Positions 1,813-43,507 of a stretch of 44,251 nucleotides of DNA are shown piece after piece. The translations under genes were made by a program, and so were the position numbers. Origin of the DNA: Oscillospiraceae bacterium (GTDB taxonomy: Bacteria; Bacillota; Clostridia; Oscillospirales; Oscillospiraceae); assembly GCA_009781695.1 (NCBI GenBank), contig WQVH01000013.1:1-44251 (forward strand). The letters run 5' to 3'. Within the stretch, counting starts at the first letter, position 1; every line of letters begins with the position of its first letter. Under the pieces are notes generated by a model, which was not told the DNA's origin, made no database searches, and saw only the letters and a list, made by a program, of their open reading frames with translations.

Positions 1813-2658
1813 TTAACTTAATCCCAAAATCTGCCGAGCCTCAGCAGGTGTTGCCACTTCACAGGTGAACTCTTCGATGATGCGCTTGGCACGTGCGACA
1901 AATTGCATATTGCTATCGGCAATTTGCCCCTTGCGATAGAGTACATTATCCTCCATGCCGACACGGATATGTCCACCCATTGCGATGGTTGCATAGAGGA
2001 TTTCCATTGCCCCTTTGCCAACGCCAAATGCCGACCATGTACTACCCGGTGCGACTTCGTCCATGATGTCCTTCATAAAGACCAGATTCTTGGTAGTGGC
2101 CATAATACCACCGGGTACGCCCATGCAGAATTGGAAGTGACAGGGTTTCTTAAGGAAGCCTTTTTTAATATAATAACCTGCATTATATATCATGCCCGGA
2201 TCAAAGACTTCGATTTCGGGCTTTACATTGACTTCTTGAGTCATTGTTCCAAGCTTTTCCAAAAACTGAGGGCTGTTCTCAAATATGGCATTGTGCTGCC
2301 AGTTCATTGTGCCGCAGTCATAAGAGCACATTTCGGGCTTGAGTTCATAAAATGGGCGCAGACGGTCTGCCTCTTTGAGGTTGACCCCGCCTGATGTGGT
2401 GATATTTAAGATGATGTCGCAGTCTTTGCGCTCGCGTATGAGCCGAACGGTTTCCTCGAACTTTTCAAAGACCATTGCAGCCTTGCCATGATCGTCACGG
2501 CAATGGATATGTGCGACTGCAGCGCCTTCTTTCCAGCAGTTGTAAATTTCTTGCGCAATTTCATGCGGCTCAATCGGTACATTTGGGGTATTATCTTTGG
2601 TAGGCCATGCGCCTGTCGTGGCAACAGTGATGATTCTTTTGTTTGATAAATCTGACAT
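1813..2658 (-). CDS. BKACE/DUF849 beta-keto acid cleavage enzyme, probable triacetate acetoacetate-lyase
   Basis: The product is a 281-residue zinc-dependent enzyme of the beta-keto acid cleavage family (3-keto-5-aminohexanoate cleavage enzyme relatives). These enzymes transfer the acyl part of a beta-keto acid to acetyl-CoA's CoA and release acetoacetate. Visible family features are TTGAWPT near the N-terminus, the Zn ligands H50 and H52 in AHIHCRD, FQFCMGVPGG in the middle, and VGMEDN near the C-terminus. ATG 2658 is chosen because AAGGAG lies just upstream; the longer frame runs through a palindrome. It is the last gene of the operon with the cyclase, dehydrogenase and SDR. That context points to triacetate (3,5-dioxohexanoate) as substrate, giving acetoacetate and acetoacetyl-CoA. 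The family is certain; the substrate is inferred from the gene set. Confidence 0.85.
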   Translation of the reverse strand: MSDLSNKRIITVATTGAWPTKDNTPNVPIEPHEIAQEIYNCWKEGAAVAHIHCRDDHGKAAMVFEKFEETVRLIRERKDCDIILNITTSGGVNLKEADRLRPFYELKPEMCSYDCGTMNWQHNAIFENSPQFLEKLGTMTQEVNVKPEIEVFDPGMIYNAGYYIKKGFLKKPCHFQFCMGVPGGIMATTKNLVFMKDIMDEVAPGSTWSAFGVGKGAMEILYATIAMGGHIRVGMEDNVLYRKGQIADSNMQFVARAKRIIEEFTCEVATPAEARQILGLS

Positions 2659-2672
2659 CGTATGCTCCTTTC

Positions 2673-2694
2673 GGTGCGATGTGGACATCGCACC
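2673..2694. repeat. Dispersed palindromic repeat, copy 1
   Basis: GGTGCGATG and CATCGCACC form a perfect 9-bp inverted repeat with a 4-base loop, followed by CTACG. A near-identical copy in reverse orientation is at 43087-43113. Here it sits directly upstream of the ribosome site of the BKACE gene, inside the operon transcript. Confidence 0.75.
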
Positions 2695-2756
2695 CTACGA
2701 AAATTCTGCTCAGTTAAATGACATGACCTTGTGCGTGGGAACCTTTTTACAGCGAC

Positions 2757-3764
2757 TTACTTATTGCGATTGAATAACTTTTGTATGTATGCTATGCCGC
2801 TGGCACCACCGCCCGCTGCATCGGCATAACCGGTACCGCCGTACTGATACGTGCGTTCCGGTACATCGTTAAGCTGATCTGCGTCAATCTCTGCGACACA
2901 ACGTGCCATCGAGCCATCCCCCATATACCAACGTAATGGGAAGCAATAGAATCTGAAACGCTTGCCCGAGACCTTCGCAAGGTCACCGCCGAGATTTTCA
3001 ACGCCAACGATCCCATTGCCGAGCATGAGCTTGTGACAGGGCTCCCAAGTACCCCAATTTCCAAATGCCTCAAGATCGCCGAATTTTTTGTCATAAGCAT
3101 CTTGGCCGTAGATACGGATATATTCAAACTTATCAAACTCGGCATTGGCTTTTTCACCGAACAACTCAGTATATTCCTCATGCAGAGGCCTGCCCGAAGC
3201 ACCGAGCAGGTTCATGCGGGTCATACCGTTATTTCCCATTGCCGTGTGCAATGGATGGTCAAGCGCTTGAGAATCCATTGCGACACACTTAGGTTTGTGC
3301 TTGACAATCCATCTTCCGGCATCAATACCCACACCGGCGGCATAGTGATAATAGGCTTTGCTATCGTCATAGTACTTGTGCATTCCGGTATCAAGACACA
3401 ATACCATGCCTTCGAGTGCTTTTGGATCAAATCCAATTTTGGCACAGGCGGCATCAAGATGCTTGTCTGTAATCAAGCCCCAAGGCTCAATTTCGACCGG
3501 CAGGCAGATTGCGTCACCGGTATATGCATCGATATCCATTTCATGTGTGTAGCGGGCACGGCGGCCATCAAACTCATATTCCATGACATGGCGTGGTGCA
3601 TCGCAATGTGTACCGGTATGCATGGTTATCGTCATTTTTTGTGTTAATACACCGCCTTTGGCCATGGAATGCGGTGCATCAAGGACTGGTTTGTCAAAGT
3701 AAGGCCAGCGTGGTTGCTCGGCAGAAAATGGATGAGTCAGATCAACAAAAACTTTTTTTCCCAT
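2757..3764 (-). CDS. Cyclase-family metal hydrolase, probable dihydrophloroglucinol cyclohydrolase
   Basis: This 335-residue protein belongs to the cyclase / kynurenine-formamidase-like family (PF04199). The metal-binding signature HxGTHxDxPxH is intact at H49, G51, T52, H53, D55, P57 and H59. The protein is longer than the roughly 210-residue KynB type. Family members hydrolyse cyclic or amide C-C(=O)/C-N bonds using a divalent metal. In the Clostridium scatologenes phloroglucinol pathway, as I recall it, a Mn-dependent member opens dihydrophloroglucinol to 3-hydroxy-5-oxohexanoate, and the neighbours here match that pathway gene for gene. GGAG precedes ATG 3764. It lies 11 bases after the dehydrogenase gene in the same operon. 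Family call firm; substrate inferred from context. Confidence 0.82.
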   Translation of the reverse strand: MGKKVFVDLTHPFSAEQPRWPYFDKPVLDAPHSMAKGGVLTQKMTITMHTGTHCDAPRHVMEYEFDGRRARYTHEMDIDAYTGDAICLPVEIEPWGLITDKHLDAACAKIGFDPKALEGMVLCLDTGMHKYYDDSKAYYHYAAGVGIDAGRWIVKHKPKCVAMDSQALDHPLHTAMGNNGMTRMNLLGASGRPLHEEYTELFGEKANAEFDKFEYIRIYGQDAYDKKFGDLEAFGNWGTWEPCHKLMLGNGIVGVENLGGDLAKVSGKRFRFYCFPLRWYMGDGSMARCVAEIDADQLNDVPERTYQYGGTGYADAAGGGASGIAYIQKLFNRNK

Positions 3765-3775
3765 GATTATTCTCC

Positions 3776-4705
3776 TTATTTTTCATTTTTCTTTTGATTT
3801 TCGACAAGATACTCACGAAGCCCTGTGGTCAGTGCCTCGATTTGCTCAGGAGCCCATTGTTGCCACCCCATGCCTGATTTCATACCAAGTGTACCCTTGT
3901 CCATCATCTCTTTCAGAAGATGTGAAGGCTCGTGATTATCGGCAAGGTGCTTCAAAACATAGTTATGTATGTTATAAGTTAAGTCAATTCCAACCAAATC
4001 TGAATTTTCCATCGGGCCGAGAACCGGCCAGCGCAACCCCGGGCCGTACTTGCAAGCGTCATCAACGGTTTTGGGATCGGCAATGCCATTTTCCACCATA
4101 TATATGGCCTCGCGCCAGAGCGCATGTTGCAGTCGATTGGCGATAAACCCGGGAACATCTTTTCTGCAAAGTACCGGCTTTTTTCCGACTTCTTCAAGAA
4201 TATCCATCAAAGTTTGCGCCACTTCCGGTGCCGTTGCATCAGACATTACAACCTCAACTAAGGGAATCAAATGGGCGGGATTCCAAAAATGAGTAGCAGC
4301 AAAGCGCTTTCTGTATTTGAGGTGCTTGCTGATTTCTGATGGACTCATGACCGAGGTGTTGGTGCAAAATATGCAGTCCGGACGGCATATTTCTTCAAGC
4401 TCTGCGAAGACTTTTTGTTTGAGCTCCATATCTTCAAATACGGCCTCAATCAAGAGGTCTGATTTGGCAATGAGGTCATCGTCCATTTCCTGAGTAAAGC
4501 GGATGCGTGACAGCCGCGCTTCAACTTCCTCGGAGGTCATCACACCTTTGTACACCAACTCTTTAGTGGATTCTCGGATACTTCCGATGAGGTCTTGGGG
4601 CGCAATGTCATACACTCCGACTTTATATGCCGATGCAAAGACGAACGCACACATTTTGCCCATCATTCCTGCGCCGATTATGGCGATATGTTTGATTCCT
4701 AACAT
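3776..4705 (-). CDS. 3-hydroxyacyl-CoA dehydrogenase-like NAD enzyme, probable 3-hydroxy-5-oxohexanoate dehydrogenase
   Basis: This is a 309-residue, NAD-dependent L-3-hydroxyacyl-CoA dehydrogenase-fold protein. The Rossmann motif GAGMMG is at residues 11-16. [11 protein letters not shown] and the catalytic-His segment [16 protein letters not shown] follow, then the C-terminal helical domain ([15 protein letters not shown]). ATG 4705 is preferred over TTG 4711 because GGAGGG is 8 bases before it. The gene overlaps the end of the SDR gene by 7 bases, which implies coupling. In a phloroglucinol operon this enzyme would oxidise (S)-3-hydroxy-5-oxohexanoate to triacetate with NAD. A role with CoA esters (butyryl-CoA metabolism) cannot be excluded, but no other beta-oxidation gene is nearby. 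Confidence 0.82.
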
Positions 4706-5487
4706 GCCCAATACCCTCCGGTTGCGTCATAGTTGCCCCCGGTGAGAAAATCCGAAGCGGGGGAAGCAAGGAAGGTCGCCAGTCCGACAAAATCCTGCGG
4801 CTCGCCCAATCGGCCGATAGGCAAGCGCTTTAAGAAGTTCTGATATACAGCGCTGCCAGAGTCGAACATCCATTCAGTCAGATCAGAGCGGAACACAGTG
4901 GGGTTGATGCTGTTTACGTTTATATTGTGGGCGGTGGAAAGTTCACAAGCGAGACTTTGCACCATGAGATCAAGCCCGCCTTTGGCCGTGCAGTAACCGG
5001 TATAGCCGGCCATACCCATCTTTGAACGTGCTGAGGACACAATGATCATTTTACCGCCTTTGCCCTGACTGATCATCTGCTCTGCGGTATACTTTGCCAG
5101 AATATAGACACTCTTGCAGTCGGCATCCATGATTGCCTGCCATGCTTCGACACTTTGTTCAACGATTGGCTTGGGCGCATTATATCCATGACAGACGGTG
5201 AGTATGTTTACTTCGCCATAGGTTTTTAGAGTGAAATTTATGACATTTTTGACATCGTCAGGGATGGCAGGGTCGCCTGTAATAAAAGCACAGTCACAGC
5301 CCGCCGCAGTCATCTCGGTGCAGATGTTTTGCAGTTTGTCTTTGTTCCTTGCGGTGAGGATGACTTTGACACCCTGTAATCCATATGCTTCTGCTACGGC
5401 TTTGCCTAGCGCACCGGTAGCGCCGGTGACTATGGCAACTTTATCTTCGAGTTTGAACATATTATTTAGAAAATTATTATCAATCAC
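4699..5487 (-). CDS. SDR oxidoreductase, probable phloroglucinol reductase
   Basis: This is a 262-residue classical short-chain dehydrogenase. The cofactor motif TGATGALG is at residues 21-28. The catalytic Ser is in VSSARS (151/152), with Tyr165 and Lys169 in the YCTAK motif. The C-terminus ([16 protein letters not shown]) is of the type seen in ketoreductases. The Arg in LTARNKD after strand 2 is compatible with NADPH. It starts at GTG 5487, with GGGGGTG just upstream, and is the first gene of the operon behind a clear promoter. Phloroglucinol reductases are NADPH-dependent SDRs that convert phloroglucinol to dihydrophloroglucinol, and the next three genes encode the following steps. SDRs are functionally diverse, so the specific assignment depends on context. 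Confidence 0.8.
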
Positions 5488-5548
5488 GTTGCACCCCCAA
5501 AAATTTTAATTAAAATTTGAATTTTTACTAGCAAATCTAATGTTGAAC

Positions 5549-5577
5549 ATGATAGACTAATGGGTAGTTTATGTCAA
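5549..5577 (-). promoter_or_regulatory. Sigma-A-like promoter of the phloroglucinol operon
   Basis: On the minus strand TTGACA (5572-5577) and TATCAT (5549-5554) are separated by exactly 17 bases. The -35 box lies within a tandem repeat, ATGTCAAGG at 5571-5579 and 5581-5589. The transcript would start about 55 bases before the SDR start codon. Confidence 0.7.
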
Positions 5578-5608
5578 GGCATGTCAAGGATGGTTGAGTT
5601 GTTTTTCG

Positions 5609-5630
5609 TAGTTTGAAAGGATTCAAACTA
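5609..5630. promoter_or_regulatory. Operator-like perfect inverted repeat
   Basis: TAGTTTGAA and TTCAAACTA flank AGGA, giving a perfect 9-bp dyad of 22 bases in the divergent intergenic region. It is 31 bases upstream of the minus-strand -35 box, a position suited to an activator, and is also upstream of the plus-strand gene. No regulator gene lies beside it. Confidence 0.55.
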
Positions 5631-5678
5631 TACCAAGGGCATGTGCGATACGCTCCCCTTATGGAAACCGCAAATGAT

Positions 5679-5741
5679 GCACGAAATAACCATTCCTTAT
5701 TCATGGTTGTTTTGTGCCTGATAAAATACGAAAGGAATGGT
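5679..5741 (+). promoter_or_regulatory. Leader with two alternative hairpins before the transhydroxylase gene
   Basis: Hairpin A pairs 5679-5693 with 5703-5717, a 15-bp stem in RNA with two G-U pairs and a 9-base loop. Hairpin B pairs ACCATTCCTT (5689-5698) with AAGGAATGGT (5732-5741), which contains the Shine-Dalgarno sequence. Bases 5689-5693 are shared, so the two exclude each other, and B would hide the ribosome site. Confidence 0.5.
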
Positions 5742-5748
5742 CATTTTT

Positions 5749-8700
5749 ATGGACTATAAAGGTGTTCAGCAAGCATTTGAAAATTTTGAAAAATCGTTGC
5801 GTACAGGTGCGCTATTCGTAATTGACGAATTTTTGAATAAATTGGCCGATACTTCGCCAGAATTTTCCGCAGAGCTGACAAAACAAGACATGACAGTGCT
5901 CTTAAAATTAAGAGATTTGAGCCAAGGCAGGGTTTTGACATTTAAGGGCGGAAAAGTCACAGGAAAAGACGCTGTGGAGACCGATGCCGATGCACAGATC
6001 ATTTTTGAATCAAAACAAGTGGCACAAAAAGTGCTTTTGGGGCAAATGGCAGGGAATATGGAGGCATTTGTCATTGCCTCGAAAAATGGTTCAATTATGA
6101 TTGCCGGTCCCGACCAAAAGACGCTGTGGTTTACCTCATTGATGCTCAAAGCGTTTTCATTTGATATTTTGTATCAAAAAAATTATGGTGTTCAAATGCC
6201 CAATGGAGAAATGCGTTATGTAACCGGAACCAATGGCGGGCCGCTATTCGTATATGTAAAAGATGATAAAATCGTCCGTATCACGCCAATAGATTTTGAT
6301 GCAGATGATGCCGAGCCTTGGACTATAACAGCAAGGGGTAAACAATTCACGCCCCCCAAGCGGACAACCGTAACTCCTTATAGCATAGGATGGAAATCAT
6401 TGGTGTATTCACCCAGCCGGATATTGCATCCGCTGAGGCGTGTTGACTTTGATCCGAATGGCGATCGCAACCCGCAAAATCGGGGAATCTCAGAATATCA
6501 GCGCATATCTTGGGATGAAGCGCTTGATATCGTTGCCGATGAGATCATCCGTGTGCGGCAAACCTATGGCCCGGGTACCGTGTTTGGTGTCAATAGTTCA
6601 CACCACACTTGGGGCAATATAGGGTACTATCAAAGTGCGATGAAGAAGTTTTTTAATCTCTTGGGCGCTACAGAAATGCTTGCAAATCCGGACAGTTGGG
6701 AAGGATTTGCATGGGGTGCGGTGCATCATTATGGCGGCAGCGGGCGCAGAGGTGCCACAGAGCCGTTTTCTACAGTCGAAGACTGTATGAAAAATGCACA
6801 GATGATTGTCTTCTGGTCTGCCGATCCGGAATCCACATCGGGCAATTACGCCGGACAAGAAGGAACCATACGTCGTGAATGGGTAAAAGAGCTCGGTATC
6901 CCGGTCGTGCATATTGATCCATATCTCAACAGTACCGCCGCATTTATGGGTGGACGTTGGATTACGCCCAAGCCCGGAACAGATGTGGCTATGGCGCTCG
7001 CTATTGCCCACATATGGTTAAAGAGCGGATTGTATGATAAAGACTATGTGGAGCGATGCACCATTGGTCTGGATAAATGGCAAGATTATATTTTTGGAAA
7101 AACCGACGGTGTAGAAAAGACACCGGAGTGGCAAGAGTCAATTACCGGAGTCCCTGCAAGAATCGTCCGCGCCTTGGCAGAGGAGTGGGGGAACAAAAAG
7201 ACATACCTTGCGTGCGGTGGCATACATTCATTCGGTGGTGCAGTCAGAGGTTCTTACGGAACAGAATGGGCCAGAGCGATGGTCTGCCTTATGGCATTGC
7301 AAGGACTTGGAAATGAAGGCATCAATTTTGGCGGCTTGCAGATGGGCACACCACTTGATACACACTTTTGGTTCCCCGGATATTCAGATGGCGGATTGAG
7401 CGGGGACTATCTTGCCTCCGCTGCGGGTGTGCAGTTATACAATCGTATGCCGCAACACGCATCACAAAATTCCGAATATCAGCGAATTCCACGTCTGCGC
7501 ATACCGGAAGCGATTTTGGACGGTCATGCTGAGGCGAATAATTACAGTAATTCATCTGTTCACGGACAGTTCTTAAAAGTAAAGTATCCTGCTCCGGGAC
7601 ACGGAGAGGTCAAATTTCTCTACAAATATGGCGGTTCTTACTTTGGTACGCAGCCGGAATCAAACCGATTTGCAAAAATGTACCGCTCTGACAAATTGGA
7701 AATAGTCGTCAGCCAGTCTATATGGATGGAAGGTGAGACCCGATATGCCGATATCATCTTGCCGGCCTGCACGAATTTTGAGCGTTGGGACATCGGTGAA
7801 TTTGCGAGTTGCGGAGGGTATATTGACAGATCATACCTGCAAAACAATCACCGTGTGATACATATCGAGCATAAATGCATAGAACCACTCGGCGAATCAA
7901 AATCCGACTATGAAATATTTACAGAAATTACAAGCCGCTTGGATATGGGGCATGTGTTCACAGAAGGCGGCAGTGATTTTGATTGGGTCAGACGGTACTT
8001 CAATGCCACAGATCTTCCGGAAGCTGTATCGTGGCAAGCGTTCATGAAAAAAGGATATTATGTTGTACCCCCACTTCCGGAAAACAGGCGTGACCCATTG
8101 GCACTGAATTGGTTTGCACGCGGAGCGAAAAGAGATACTCCGGAGCAAATTCCGGCACCGTCTGAGTTTTACGGCAAGTTTGCGGAAGGATTGCAAACAC
8201 CGTCCGGAAAGTTTGAATTTGAATCACAAACGCTCAAGCGCTACAATCCCAACGATCCCGAACGTTTACCGATTTGTACTTGGATACCGTCATGGGAAGG
8301 GCCGGAATCGGAACTGTATGAAAAATACAAACTCCAGCTCATTTCTCCGCATCCCAAGTATAGTTACCACACAATGGGGGATGGCAAGGATTCGACGGTC
8401 AACGATATATCCGAACACCGCATGTTGATTGATGGTTATCGGTATTGGATATTCCGTATGAATCCGACCGATGCTCAAGTGCGTGGAGTCAGTCATGGTG
8501 ATGTGGTTGAAGTATTTAACGATCGTGGGAGTGTGCTTTTTGGACTGGAAATTACGGATCGTCTGCCGCCCGGTGTTGTGCATTCGTATGAATCTTGTTC
8601 AGACTATCAACCAATCGGTATTCCGGGTCAATCGCCGGAGGTCAATGGTTGCGTAAACATATTGACACCAAAAAGATTTATTACTAAGGATTCTCATGGG

Positions 8701-8778
8701 CTTTCGGTCAACGCTTGCCTTGTTGAAGTGAGAAAATGGGAAGGGGATATAGGCAAATGGAAAAATTGCATGTCATAG
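5749..8778 (+). CDS. Pyrogallol:phloroglucinol transhydroxylase-like molybdopterin large subunit with N-terminal SCP2-like domain
   Basis: This 1009-residue DMSO-reductase-family protein resembles the Pelobacter acidigallici transhydroxylase large subunit as I remember it: GGPLFVYVKD, FTPPKRTTVTPY, SSHHTWGN, NPDSWEG, ADIILPACTNFERWD and HSYESC all have counterparts. Like that enzyme it lacks the N-terminal Cys motif for an Fe-S cluster. Ser316 matches the Mo ligand Ser175. His285, Asp315, Tyr293 and Tyr545 match His144, Asp174, Tyr152 and Tyr404, whereas Arg153, Trp354 and Tyr400 are Tyr294, Phe495 and Trp541. Residues 20-135 form an extra SCP2 (sterol-carrier)-like domain (DADAQIIFESKQVAQKVLLG, GNMEAF). 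ATG 5749 is preferred because AAGGA directly abuts ATG 5737. It overlaps the small subunit by 22 bases. Confidence 0.85.
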   Translation: MDYKGVQQAFENFEKSLRTGALFVIDEFLNKLADTSPEFSAELTKQDMTVLLKLRDLSQGRVLTFKGGKVTGKDAVETDADAQIIFESKQVAQKVLLGQMAGNMEAFVIASKNGSIMIAGPDQKTLWFTSLMLKAFSFDILYQKNYGVQMPNGEMRYVTGTNGGPLFVYVKDDKIVRITPIDFDADDAEPWTITARGKQFTPPKRTTVTPYSIGWKSLVYSPSRILHPLRRVDFDPNGDRNPQNRGISEYQRISWDEALDIVADEIIRVRQTYGPGTVFGVNSSHHTWGNIGYYQSAMKKFFNLLGATEMLANPDSWEGFAWGAVHHYGGSGRRGATEPFSTVEDCMKNAQMIVFWSADPESTSGNYAGQEGTIRREWVKELGIPVVHIDPYLNSTAAFMGGRWITPKPGTDVAMALAIAHIWLKSGLYDKDYVERCTIGLDKWQDYIFGKTDGVEKTPEWQESITGVPARIVRALAEEWGNKKTYLACGGIHSFGGAVRGSYGTEWARAMVCLMALQGLGNEGINFGGLQMGTPLDTHFWFPGYSDGGLSGDYLASAAGVQLYNRMPQHASQNSEYQRIPRLRIPEAILDGHAEANNYSNSSVHGQFLKVKYPAPGHGEVKFLYKYGGSYFGTQPESNRFAKMYRSDKLEIVVSQSIWMEGETRYADIILPACTNFERWDIGEFASCGGYIDRSYLQNNHRVIHIEHKCIEPLGESKSDYEIFTEITSRLDMGHVFTEGGSDFDWVRRYFNATDLPEAVSWQAFMKKGYYVVPPLPENRRDPLALNWFARGAKRDTPEQIPAPSEFYGKFAEGLQTPSGKFEFESQTLKRYNPNDPERLPICTWIPSWEGPESELYEKYKLQLISPHPKYSYHTMGDGKDSTVNDISEHRMLIDGYRYWIFRMNPTDAQVRGVSHGDVVEVFNDRGSVLFGLEITDRLPPGVVHSYESCSDYQPIGIPGQSPEVNGCVNILTPKRFITKDSHGLSVNACLVEVRKWEGDIGKWKNCMS

Positions 8779-9590
8779 TCGATCTTGCAAAATGTGTAGG
8801 TTGTTTTAACTGTATGATTGCGTGTAAGGATGAACATGTGGGGAACAACTGGTATCCATATACGGCGGCACAACAAAAGCATGACCAAAAATGGATAGAG
8901 CCGGAAAAACATGAGCGCGGAGCAGCGCCGTTTACCGAGATTTGCTTTGTAACGAAACTCTGCCAGCATTGCAATAATGCGCCCTGCGAGAAGGCATCGG
9001 ATGCCATTACACGCCGGGCGGATGGTGTGGTTTTGATTGATGCGGAAAAAGCAAAAGGCGATCGTGCATTACCCAAAGCCTGTCCGTATGGAAAAATTTC
9101 GTGGAATGAAGATGCGCAAACGGCGCAAAAGTGTACGATGTGTGCGCATCTGCTTGATGACGGTTGGAAAGAGCCCCGCTGTGTACAGGCTTGTCCGTTG
9201 CGGGCGTTAAGTGTTGTATTTTGCAGTGATGACGAATTTGCAAAAATGGCGAAGGCGCAAGACCTCATGTCGCTTACAGATGGAAGCAATGACCCACGTG
9301 TGCTCTATCGCAATCTGCATAGGCTGAATACTTGTTTTATTGCGGGTGCGTTGGCCTTTCAAGATGAGGATATACAACGTGCGGCGGCAGATGCTGAGGT
9401 GCAATTGTTGCAAAATGGTGAGATCGTTGCACAGTTAAAGACCGATTTCTTCGGTGAGTTTAAAATTGATCGTATTGCTCCCAATAGTGGAACATATGAG
9501 CTTATATGTTCGCTTGATGGATATGAGCCGATTGCAACAAGTGTCACGGTAGCAGATGAGAGTCCGTGCTTGGATGTGATGTTGTTCTAA
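8757..9590 (+). CDS. Transhydroxylase-like iron-sulfur small subunit
   Basis: This 277-residue electron-transfer subunit is of the same size as the P. acidigallici transhydroxylase beta subunit. Twelve cysteines are arranged for three [4Fe-4S] clusters: C13, C16, C19, C23; C69, C72, C77, C109; C126, C129, C142, C146. VLIDAEKAKG and KCTMCAHLLDD match that subunit as I recall it. Residues 197-277 form a Cna-B/transthyretin-like beta domain (TDFFGEFKID), a feature of the transhydroxylase beta chain that most DmsB-type subunits lack. This supports the specific family. ATG 8757 follows AAGGGG and lies inside the end of the large-subunit gene, so the two are translationally coupled. No signal peptide is visible, consistent with a cytoplasmic enzyme. 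Confidence 0.88.
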   Translation: MEKLHVIVDLAKCVGCFNCMIACKDEHVGNNWYPYTAAQQKHDQKWIEPEKHERGAAPFTEICFVTKLCQHCNNAPCEKASDAITRRADGVVLIDAEKAKGDRALPKACPYGKISWNEDAQTAQKCTMCAHLLDDGWKEPRCVQACPLRALSVVFCSDDEFAKMAKAQDLMSLTDGSNDPRVLYRNLHRLNTCFIAGALAFQDEDIQRAAADAEVQLLQNGEIVAQLKTDFFGEFKIDRIAPNSGTYELICSLDGYEPIATSVTVADESPCLDVMLF

Positions 9591-9683: not shown

Positions 9684-10922
9684 TTAGTAATGACCGTACT
9701 TATGCACTGTGTCAAACATTGCATGAAGATTTTCTTTCGGGCATCTGTCAACCGGGATGGAAACGTCCATCATGAAGCCGCCGCCGGGTGCACAGATATC
9801 CAGAAGTTTCTTGGTTTCGTCGGCGATTTTGTCCGGAGTGCTGTACATGAGTGTCGCAGTAGGAAGGTTGCCGCAAATACATGCCACTTGACCAACGGTC
9901 TCTTTGGCTCTCTTCATGTCTACTTTTTCAAACATGTAGACTACTTTGCCCGGAGGAACATCGCAAAGTTGCTCAAGTCTTGTGTTGTAGTTACCCTCAG
10001 TAAATACATATGGTGTGATGCCGTTGTCTATGCAAGCCATAATCAGCGCCTTTAGACCCGGCCAGTAGAATTTCGCATAGTTCTCAGGGCTCATAAACTC
10101 ATCAACGCCCATATGCAACGGAATGAGGAAGAATTCCTTCTTCATAGCAATCGCTGCGCCGAGTGCATTTCTGAGCATGATGCCTTGCATGGTGTTGACT
10201 GCTGCAAGCAGTTCGTCCGGACATTCATGGATATCCATGATGGCAGGGATCATGCCGCGGAATGTATCAGCCAGCATATCAAATGGGCATGTTGTTCCGA
10301 CCTGTGGGCCGAGTACAAATCCTGCATCTTCGATGACTTGTGCGCAAGCTCCGCCGCCCATCAGCCAATCGAGAGAATGCTTGCCTGATAGTGCAAGTGC
10401 TTCAAAAGCTTGTTTGACTTCCGGATCGCAGAAAGGCACAGTCGAAGCATATAGTCCAAACTCTATGGGATTTTGCAGATTGACTTTAGCAAGACCGGCA
10501 AGGTTTTTGTTTCTGCGCGGCAGCCATTTAGACAGAATAAAATGTGTCGGGTCAAATACAAATTCTTCGTATTCGTCTGATGACATATATTCGCCATCGA
10601 GAATCTGGAAGCTGTCATTGAGGGGGATACCGTCTTCATATCCCGGGAACTTAATGAACTCTGAACCTAATGCTTTGGCGGCCAAAGAGGGATATACAGC
10701 AGGAGGCCATACGATGTCCGGATCAAATTCTTCCAAATAAGCTTGAATACCGGGGATCGAGTTTTTGACATCAGTCAAAGAGGCATAGCTGGGGATTCCA
10801 TAGGCGGAGCCATAAAAGAAACCAAGTTTTGGGGCGAGTGGAACGCGATCAGGCACTTTGAGCGCCTTTACGTCATCTACGCGTTTTCTACGTGCATTAT
10901 AAAGTTCTTGTTTTGTTGGCAT
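9684..10922 (-). CDS. Uroporphyrinogen decarboxylase (URO-D)-like family protein of unknown substrate
   Basis: This 412-residue protein is related to the URO-D/MtaA superfamily, which contains heme-pathway decarboxylases and corrinoid-dependent methyltransferases. Features include an N-terminal PDRVPLAPKLGF segment, TEGNYNTRLEQL in place of the HxC zinc motif of MtaA-type enzymes, then CGNLPTATLMYSTPDKI and a C-terminal GGGFMMDVSIPVD. The TEGxYxxRLExL subgroup is, to my knowledge, uncharacterised and common in catabolic clusters. There is no corrinoid protein or heme gene nearby, so neither heme synthesis nor a complete methyltransferase system can be claimed. It faces the transhydroxylase genes across a terminator. 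O-demethylation of methoxylated aromatics, which would supply pyrogallol-type substrates, is one possible role. The start at 10922 has only a weak AGG upstream. Confidence 0.75.
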   Translation of the reverse strand: MPTKQELYNARRKRVDDVKALKVPDRVPLAPKLGFFYGSAYGIPSYASLTDVKNSIPGIQAYLEEFDPDIVWPPAVYPSLAAKALGSEFIKFPGYEDGIPLNDSFQILDGEYMSSDEYEEFVFDPTHFILSKWLPRRNKNLAGLAKVNLQNPIEFGLYASTVPFCDPEVKQAFEALALSGKHSLDWLMGGGACAQVIEDAGFVLGPQVGTTCPFDMLADTFRGMIPAIMDIHECPDELLAAVNTMQGIMLRNALGAAIAMKKEFFLIPLHMGVDEFMSPENYAKFYWPGLKALIMACIDNGITPYVFTEGNYNTRLEQLCDVPPGKVVYMFEKVDMKRAKETVGQVACICGNLPTATLMYSTPDKIADETKKLLDICAPGGGFMMDVSIPVDRCPKENLHAMFDTVHKYGHY

Positions 10923-34017: not shown

Positions 34018-34074
34018 CAATACACAAAAACGCTGCGAGCAAATGGTTGGCGGGCGGTTTTAGAGTGAATTTAA

Positions 34075-34222
34075 AAGATGAAGGTGCGTCGGCAGATGAT
34101 TGGAGAATCGCTTCAATTATTTTGAATATGCCGACGAGAATAGGGAATCAGGTTAGAATCCTGAACAGTCCTGCTGCCGTGTAGACATGTTCATTGTCTG
34201 AGTCGGAAGACCTGCCTCATTT
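34075..34222 (+). promoter_or_regulatory. Cobalamin riboswitch
   Basis: The core of a B12 riboswitch is visible. P3 is closed by CGTCGGC (34087-34093) and GCCGACG (34130-34136). GAGAATAGGGAATC and the GGTTAGAATCC B12-box-like section follow, then CTGCTGCCGT and the 3' core GAGTCGGAAGACCTGCC. It precedes a terminator and the cobT operon, so B12 should switch transcription off. Confidence 0.88.
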
Positions 34223-34303
34223 TGGCGGCTTACGCCGTATCCGTAATACCTCTGCAGTGAATGGAGTGATTATGAGTACTTAGGGCTTTTTTGCTCAAAA
34301 CGT

Positions 34304-41976: not shown

Positions 41977-41997
41977 TCTCGGTGTAATTGAATAGTT

Positions 41998-42110
41998 GCG
42001 TCTTCGGGGCAGGGTGAAATCCCCTACCGGCGGTTATAGTCCGCGAGCGAGTATTTGCTGAATTGGTGAAATTCCAATACCGACAGTTATAGTCTGGATG
42101 GGAGAAGATG
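41998..42110 (+). promoter_or_regulatory. FMN riboswitch (RFN element)
   Basis: The sequence follows the RFN consensus closely: TCTTCGGGGCAGGGTGAAAT, CCCTACCGGCGGT, AGTCCGCGAGC, GGTGAAATTCC, ATACCGACAGT, AGTCTGGATGGGAGAAGA. The outer stem TCTTC/GAAGA closes it. It lies in the leader of ribU, so FMN should repress riboflavin uptake. Confidence 0.97.
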
Positions 42111-42196
42111 AGATATTGTGTTTGCACATTATCTATGCTTTGTACGACTGAAGGGCGCTGGCTTTTCGGTTGTATTTTATTTTGGAGGTATGAAAA

Positions 42197-43180: not shown

Positions 43181-43434
43181 AGCGGTAAACGGCCTGCTGT
43201 GATACGCTCTTCTTTTTCTTAGCGCAATGTTGCATGCTTTTCATTTGATGCTTGTATTATGATATCTTCTTGTTCTTGCTGGGTGGGGATTTTTCTCGAT
43301 CATTGGGGGATTTTTATATTGACATTAACACAATTGGACAGGCTTCGATGAATTGTTGAAAGTATTTCCGTTAGCTCAACCTCGCATCTATGTAAATGTT
43401 TATAGCTGACAATTTCGATGAAACTACTTGTGAA

Positions 43435-43507
43435 GAGCCGTGTGCGTTAGTTGCGCAAGCACGGATTCTGTGAGGGGCAGTTGCTGTGAAGTGGCTACCT
43501 ACTCGAC
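43435..43507 (+). mobile_element. Group II intron 3' end (domains V and VI), degenerate
   Basis: Domain V starts GAGCCGTGTGCG at 43435 and ends GCACGGATTC at 43468, with the catalytic AGC at 43436-43438 and one extra A in the basal stem. Domain VI follows and folds with a bulged A at 43501, seven bases from the 3' end CTCGAC (43502-43507). No reverse transcriptase or other domains are found upstream, so this is a remnant. Confidence 0.7.

Follow-up and report, generated by a model that had tools for sequence, protein, structure and literature searches.

The stretch of DNA considered here, hereafter the window, comprises 44,251 nucleotides of contig WQVH01000013.1 from an Oscillospiraceae bacterium, whose draft genome, in 106 contigs, is 98% complete, with a contamination estimate of 2.2%. 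Between positions 1813 and 9590 it carries a four-gene operon that is assigned with good support to the known anaerobic phloroglucinol pathway and, transcribed away from it, the two genes of a molybdenum (Mo) enzyme of the pyrogallol hydroxytransferase family, the large subunit of which bears an additional N-terminal domain of predicted SCP2 fold. A sequence-only reading of the same DNA had described a complete cluster for pyrogallol and phloroglucinol degradation; the six open reading frames (ORFs) that it named are all intact where it placed them, belong to the families that it gave and lie in the divergent layout that it described, with four genes on the minus strand, two on the plus strand and 249 bp between them. 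The features, including one further gene, are as follows.

1813..2688, minus strand: TAL, triacetate acetoacetate-lyase, BKACE family (Pfam BKACE, E 1.3e-103)
2757..3764, minus strand: DPGC, dihydrophloroglucinol cyclohydrolase, cyclase family (Pfam Cyclase; Trp20/Tyr22)
3776..4711, minus strand: TfD, (S)-3-hydroxy-5-oxohexanoate dehydrogenase, 3-hydroxyacyl-CoA dehydrogenase (HADH) family (alignment to 4kug)
4699..5487, minus strand: PGR, phloroglucinol reductase, SDR family, first gene of the operon (62% identity to 5g4k)
5488..5736, no strand: divergent intergenic region of 249 bp (palindrome at 5609-5630, near-consensus minus-strand promoter at 5577-5549)
5737..8778, plus strand: large subunit of the pyrogallol-hydroxytransferase-family Mo enzyme (4v4c_A, E 2.8e-294)
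5749..6201, plus strand: SCP2-like N-terminal domain of the large subunit (AF2 model and Foldseek)
8736..9590, plus strand: small (Fe-S) subunit (4v4c_B, E 1.2e-57)
9684..10922, minus strand: URO-D-family methyltransferase-like gene, convergent, a candidate O-demethylase component and possible associate (Pfam URO-D, E 2.2e-15)

The Pfam families are BKACE, Cyclase, 3HCDH and SDR for the operon, and a Molybdopterin/AhtL-like large subunit plus a Fer4 small subunit for the divergent pair. The operon is read in the order PGR, TfD, which overlaps the end of PGR, DPGC, about a dozen bases further on, and TAL, about 70 bases after that. Start sites allow some latitude in two genes: the small-subunit ORF shares its first 43 nt with the large-subunit gene and may begin at a slightly later ATG, and an internal start in TAL would give a shorter protein.

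All four genes of the half of the pathway that leads from phloroglucinol to acetoacetate are backed by homology and by published diagnostic residues. PGR aligns over 259 aa with 62% identity (phmmer E 2e-106) to 5g4k, which we take to be the PGR structure of Clostridium sp. ATCC BAA-442, and its T-A-R-N falls on the T-G-R-N of that structure. A PGR structure from this strain is named in PMC10470551, which also gives the residue marks that set the pathway enzymes of Clostridium scatologenes apart from their relatives. DPGC, for which no close solved structure was found, has Trp20 and Tyr22 as in the CsDPGC of that paper, as do 12/12 sequences, the window's included, aligned after a whole-protein search; both residues also recur in 80/80 named loci, a count that is biased and partly built in, because WPYFDKP, one of the two search peptides, contains them both. 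CsTfD is described in the same source as having the catalytic Ser/His/Asn without the CoA-contact residues Lys56 and Asn221, and the TfD of the window, aligned to 4kug and judged by eye, retains the Ser/His/Asn set and has Val and Gly at the two contact positions. Finally, TAL, 41% identical to Kce (2y7d), carries Trp where Kce has Glu14, which is the published mark of a TAL (PMC10470551); among TAL-like matches scored at this position, Trp is found in 57/59 and Ile in 2/59.

On this evidence from sequence, the minus-strand operon is well supported as the known anaerobic phloroglucinol pathway. PGR would convert phloroglucinol to dihydrophloroglucinol, DPGC would open the ring of the latter to yield 3-hydroxy-5-oxohexanoate, TfD would oxidise this compound to triacetate, and TAL would turn triacetate and acetyl-CoA into acetoacetyl-CoA and acetoacetate. 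The C. scatologenes cluster of PMC10470551 shares with the window the four enzyme families, their pocket residues and the clustering of the genes; in contrast to that cluster, the window ORFs, judged by eye, include no transporter or regulator gene, and the window alone has a Mo hydroxytransferase-family pair lying divergently alongside.

A DPGC relative is encoded in 240 stretches of the genome contigs searched. In the best 80 of these 240, which were examined for neighbours at E up to 1e-15, a match lies near DPGC for PGR in 74, for TfD in 63 and for TAL in 60, counts that include weak SDR and HADH matches of 26-37% identity and that come from loci of which many are cut by contig ends; because the three genes recur beside DPGC in this way, the clustering is not a matter of chance. 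The DPGC gene itself is patchy, being present in 2/19 genomes of the genus (the window's own included), 11/99 of the whole relative set and 9/394 from the order. In the same-genus genome G016 (L026), the operon consists of PGR, DPGC, TAL and a URO-D gene, and the 18 kb retrieved there contain no match to TfD; a Deferrisomatales genome (L076:10001-13766) has two adjoining DPGC matches, of 75% and 61%.

The divergent pair is, in terms of sequence, a member of the pyrogallol hydroxytransferase family in the broad sense. The solved enzyme 4v4c is presumably the Pelobacter acidigallici pyrogallol hydroxytransferase. Its A chain aligns with large-subunit residues 159-1004 (E 2.8e-294, 50% identity) and its B chain with the small subunit (E 1.2e-57), in each case over almost the whole of the solved chain, and AhtL-like domain 1 is recognised in the large subunit (PF21423, E 1.3e-30). 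The N-terminal ~155 residues of the large subunit have no counterpart in the 4v4c_A chain. Their AF2 model (mean predicted local distance difference test score, pLDDT, 84.3) finds UbiJ-SCP2 (6h6o) as its best Foldseek match (E 1e-5) and superposes on solved SCP2 structures with a template modelling (TM) score of about 0.5-0.65, which assigns the added domain, as modelled, to the SCP2 fold. The likeness to UbiJ-type SCP2 domains is therefore one of predicted fold, whereas, unlike them, the window domain is fused to a Mo enzyme and its sequence match to Pfam SCP2 stays below the gathering cut-off (14.5 vs 21.3 bits, E 0.048).

Seventeen large subunits, encoded in 14 genomes, were found to carry this fusion (the window's own, G015, G016 with two, G034, G045, G446, G447, G459, G501, G541, G594, G797, G1018 and G1070 with three), and it is rare in the sampled sets, occurring in 7/400 genomes of the family and 4/398 of the phylum, the window's own being counted in both. 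Two trees were built by a quick method with Shimodaira–Hasegawa-like approximate likelihood ratio test (SH-aLRT) support only: the first with 38 of 49 AthL-type proteins plus 4v4c_A (39 rows; 11 were left out by hand, as thinning), the second with ten more added, giving 49 large subunits. Columns filled in fewer than 60% of rows were dropped, and with them those of the added domain. In both trees a branch with support 100 sets the fused proteins apart (8/8 in the 39-row tree, 17/17 in the 49-row tree), while Pelobacter 4v4c_A groups, with support 98, with a copy on contig C63 of the window's own genome and with copies from G016, G446, G447 and G449, a clade outside which the window large subunit falls. 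Identity to 4v4c_A is 63% for the C63 copy and 50% for the window copy.

The residues that presumably line the pocket of the Pelobacter enzyme (4v4c numbering) give a mixed picture. The window copy retains His144, Tyr152, Asp174, Ser175, Trp176, Tyr404 and Tyr560; the first six are the same in 17/17 fused proteins and Tyr560 in 16/17. Two positions have changed in the window copy, and in all fused proteins with it: Arg153, which is present in 10/10 sequences of the Pelobacter and sister clades and is Arg or Lys in 19/21 more distant family members, is replaced in 17/17 by Tyr, Trp, Phe or, once, His, and Trp354, found in 6/6 of the Pelobacter clade and 1/4 of the sister group, is Phe, Leu or Val in 17/17. 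The earlier assignment of the pair as the two subunits of a transhydroxylase acting on pyrogallol is only partly supported: both subunits belong to the family and His144, Asp174, Ser175 and Tyr404 are shared, but the pair falls in a separate SCP2-fused clade, and the genome encodes a closer relative of the Pelobacter enzyme on C63. The N-terminal fusion had been missed.

Altogether, the genome encodes five AthL-type large subunits (window, C63, C1, C5 and C23), and the settings of the four others (L042-L045) are all different, with URO-D and SnoaL genes, thiolase-like (by eye) and SDR genes, a cyclase gene, and URO-D-like and transporter-like (by eye) genes. Selenocysteine in AthL relatives was considered as well and dropped, because, in ten relatives with reported in-frame stops, stops inside the alignment sat only at the ordinary C-terminal end (3/10) or were absent (7/10).

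Reading outward from the observed gene identities, pathway pocket residues, clade and predicted fold, we infer that the Mo pair feeds the operon, and likewise what its substrate would be and that its SCP2 domain would hold a ligand. A Mo enzyme of the SCP2-fused clade probably supplies the phloroglucinol pathway: the pair would be a pyrogallol-hydroxytransferase-family enzyme that has gained an SCP2 domain and whose substrate pocket is altered. It would most likely start from some polyphenol that is not free pyrogallol and deliver phloroglucinol, or a close relative of it, to the operon, and ordinary pyrogallol conversion in this cell would be better assigned to the C63 copy. Taken as a whole, this combination of a known pathway operon with an altered-substrate, SCP2-fused Mo enzyme that feeds it is one that we hold to be slightly better than an even prospect. 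The divergent gap speaks for a link between pair and operon, as do some of the other fused loci: TAL- or DPGC-like matches of at least 33% occur in 6/17 fused stretches (the window, G446, G797 and three in G1070), and in G446 the fused pair lies ~7-8 kb from TfD (46%) and DPGC (75%) matches, with a 77% TAL match beyond and an SDR only 31% identical to PGR. Several points weigh on the other side. Pyrogallol may still be accepted by the window enzyme, because its catalytic residues are kept; C63 could be mis-binned, given the draft state of the 106-contig assembly; in 10/17 fused loci the stretch retrieved contains no match to DPGC, TfD or TAL, although some stretches end at contig ends; the matches in G045 are limited to a cyclase of 27% and an HADH of 35%; and in G016, of the same genus, the phloroglucinol operon and the fused pairs lie on different contigs.

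The phloroglucinol operon is already known, and the SCP2-fused hydroxytransferase variant adjoining it is new. In the open-access literature searched, partly by passages, no mention was found of an SCP2 fusion or of a linkage to Hdr genes; in passages of PMC3971608 and PMC7327174, which came up in this search, both enzymes are named with no link between them. According to PMC7028382 (2020), pyrogallol hydroxytransferase was the only bis-molybdopterin guanine dinucleotide (bis-MGD) enzyme, besides the catechol dehydroxylases of that study, known to modify the aromatic ring of its substrate. Enzymes of a clade that has acquired a domain for ligand binding, and beside which electron-transfer genes recur, would broaden this chemistry. 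They would also suggest a way, open to testing, in which phenols from plants or lignin are turned into fermentation products in guts, those of insects among them.

It is more doubtful that the window pair is simply a diverged pyrogallol-phloroglucinol transhydroxylase and the locus a complete pyrogallol-to-acetoacetate cluster, as first proposed. Pyrogallol hydroxytransferase is the best solved match for both subunits, the Ser175 and His144/Asp174/Tyr404 positions are retained, the pair divergently adjoins the operon, and AthLS of other types stand near DPGC in an actinobacterium (L070) and in a member of the Dehalococcoidia (L115); however, the separate clade, the C63 copy nearer to the characterised enzyme and the loss of Arg153 and Trp354, each throughout the fused set, speak against this reading.

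The neighbours of the fused pairs bring in two further possibilities. In 6/17 fused loci (G016:C7, G034, G045, G446, G459 and G501; stretches L154, L156, L157, L187, L209 and L210) genes matching polyprenyl synthetase, HdrC, HdrB, HdrA, MvhD and more Fe-S proteins come after the pair, the families having been tested by Pfam in L154 only and by similarity to L154 in the other loci. G015 (cut by a contig end) and G594 have the polyprenyl-synthetase match, preceded by a small gene, without Hdr, and G594 also has an electron transfer flavoprotein (ETF) alpha subunit and an ETF-quinone oxidoreductase (ETF-QO)-like protein nearby. The fused pair and the Hdr/MvhD genes thus appear to form a recurring module of as yet unassigned function, and in some genomes the neighbours point to electron transfer. 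In G1070 (L212:6512-14046), one of the three fused pairs is followed by a glycyl-radical enzyme and its radical-SAM activase and then by SDR, HADH and BKACE-type genes, a set that looks like a different anaerobic ring pathway.

From this pattern one might propose, although we consider it unlikely, an unrecognised class of aromatic-ring Mo enzyme in which a hydroxytransferase large subunit is joined to an SCP2 small-molecule-binding domain; in its full form, such an enzyme would act together with the polyprenyl-synthetase-like protein and draw on HdrABC-MvhD for electron transfer, taking hydroxyl groups off the ring, or shifting them, in a phenol that is attached to a lipid or hydrophobic in some other way. 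The window would hold a reduced version of it that has come to serve the phloroglucinol pathway. It is quite unlikely that the fused enzyme is an electron-accepting dehydroxylase working through HdrABC-MvhD or ETF, for example from tetrahydroxybenzene to phloroglucinol: the Hdr and MvhD matches of the six loci and the ETF proteins of G594 would suit such a reaction, but the known reaction of the family is net redox-neutral, no such genes lie beside the window pair, and in the window genome an HdrA query returned only a 62-residue Fe-S-type stretch (E 1.9e-6) and a PF02662 (MvhD) search returned nothing. An Hdr-driven reaction in the window genome was accordingly rejected.

The divergent gap contains a perfect palindrome at 5609-5630 with 9-bp arms, TAGTTTGAA-AGGA-TTCAAACTA. 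Allowing up to 3 mismatches, the pattern is expected 0.02 times in the window and found once; exact copies occur in 2/216 loci (L001 and L198), both of which are the window's own stretch. As a sequence match it is a candidate operator. An operator shared with C63 was rejected, the palindrome being absent from that contig at up to 3 mismatches. The near-consensus minus-strand promoter at 5577-5549, likewise a sequence match, has to be read against promoter-like matches in the window overall that are at chance level (17 found, 17.2 expected). That the two gene sets came together by chance, with the Mo enzyme serving another pathway, is very unlikely, since, although most DPGC loci lack AthL, a match (E up to 1e-15) occurring in only 4 of the best 80, one of just 23%, with L067 adding matches of 22-27% at E 1e-8, and G016 keeps the two sets on separate contigs, the gap holds a palindrome not found in C63 or in the 216 loci outside the window's own stretches, and in a second genome, G446, a cluster of the phloroglucinol type lies near a fused pair.

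As for the upstream supply, gallate decarboxylase is linked to the UbiD family, and such decarboxylation is known from lactobacilli. The sequence-only reading had seen no gallate decarboxylase gene, and this is borne out by the own genome, which, at 98% completeness, has no UbiD-family match, while 9/14 control genomes were positive. Its suggestion of gallate as the source is not supported: because the UbiD match is missing, gallate was set aside as an unlikely direct substrate.

The convergent URO-D-family gene at 9684-10922 had been overlooked. URO-D proteins can serve as O-demethylase parts; MtaA-type NCBIfam matches of the window protein are weak and far below cut-off. In G016 a 64% relative comes immediately after TAL, other URO-D genes stand by the C63 pair and ~5-8 kb from the fused pairs in L154 (barely over the cut-off) and L208, and a 31% relative, itself without a Pfam hit, adjoins the C23 pair. 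A search of the own genome for PF02607 found a single corrinoid protein, on C12, where its neighbours are a methyltransferase of the pterin-binding kind and a gene that, judged by eye, is FolD-like. Elsewhere, L090:3109-13260 combines a corrinoid protein, a RACo-type activator and a 41% match to the window URO-D protein, near DPGC and TfD matches, and is a possible O-demethylation plus phloroglucinol cluster. Methoxylated phenols may thus be demethylated to feed the pathway, which is a lead rather than a result.

Farther along the window, a match to an Rfam group II intron at 43433-43507, near the contig end, is barely above threshold (42 vs 40 bits). Rfam gathering matches to a cobalamin riboswitch (34071-34233) and a flavin mononucleotide (FMN) riboswitch (41996-42113) stand upstream of ORFs that resemble, by eye, cobamide-synthesis and vitamin-uptake genes.

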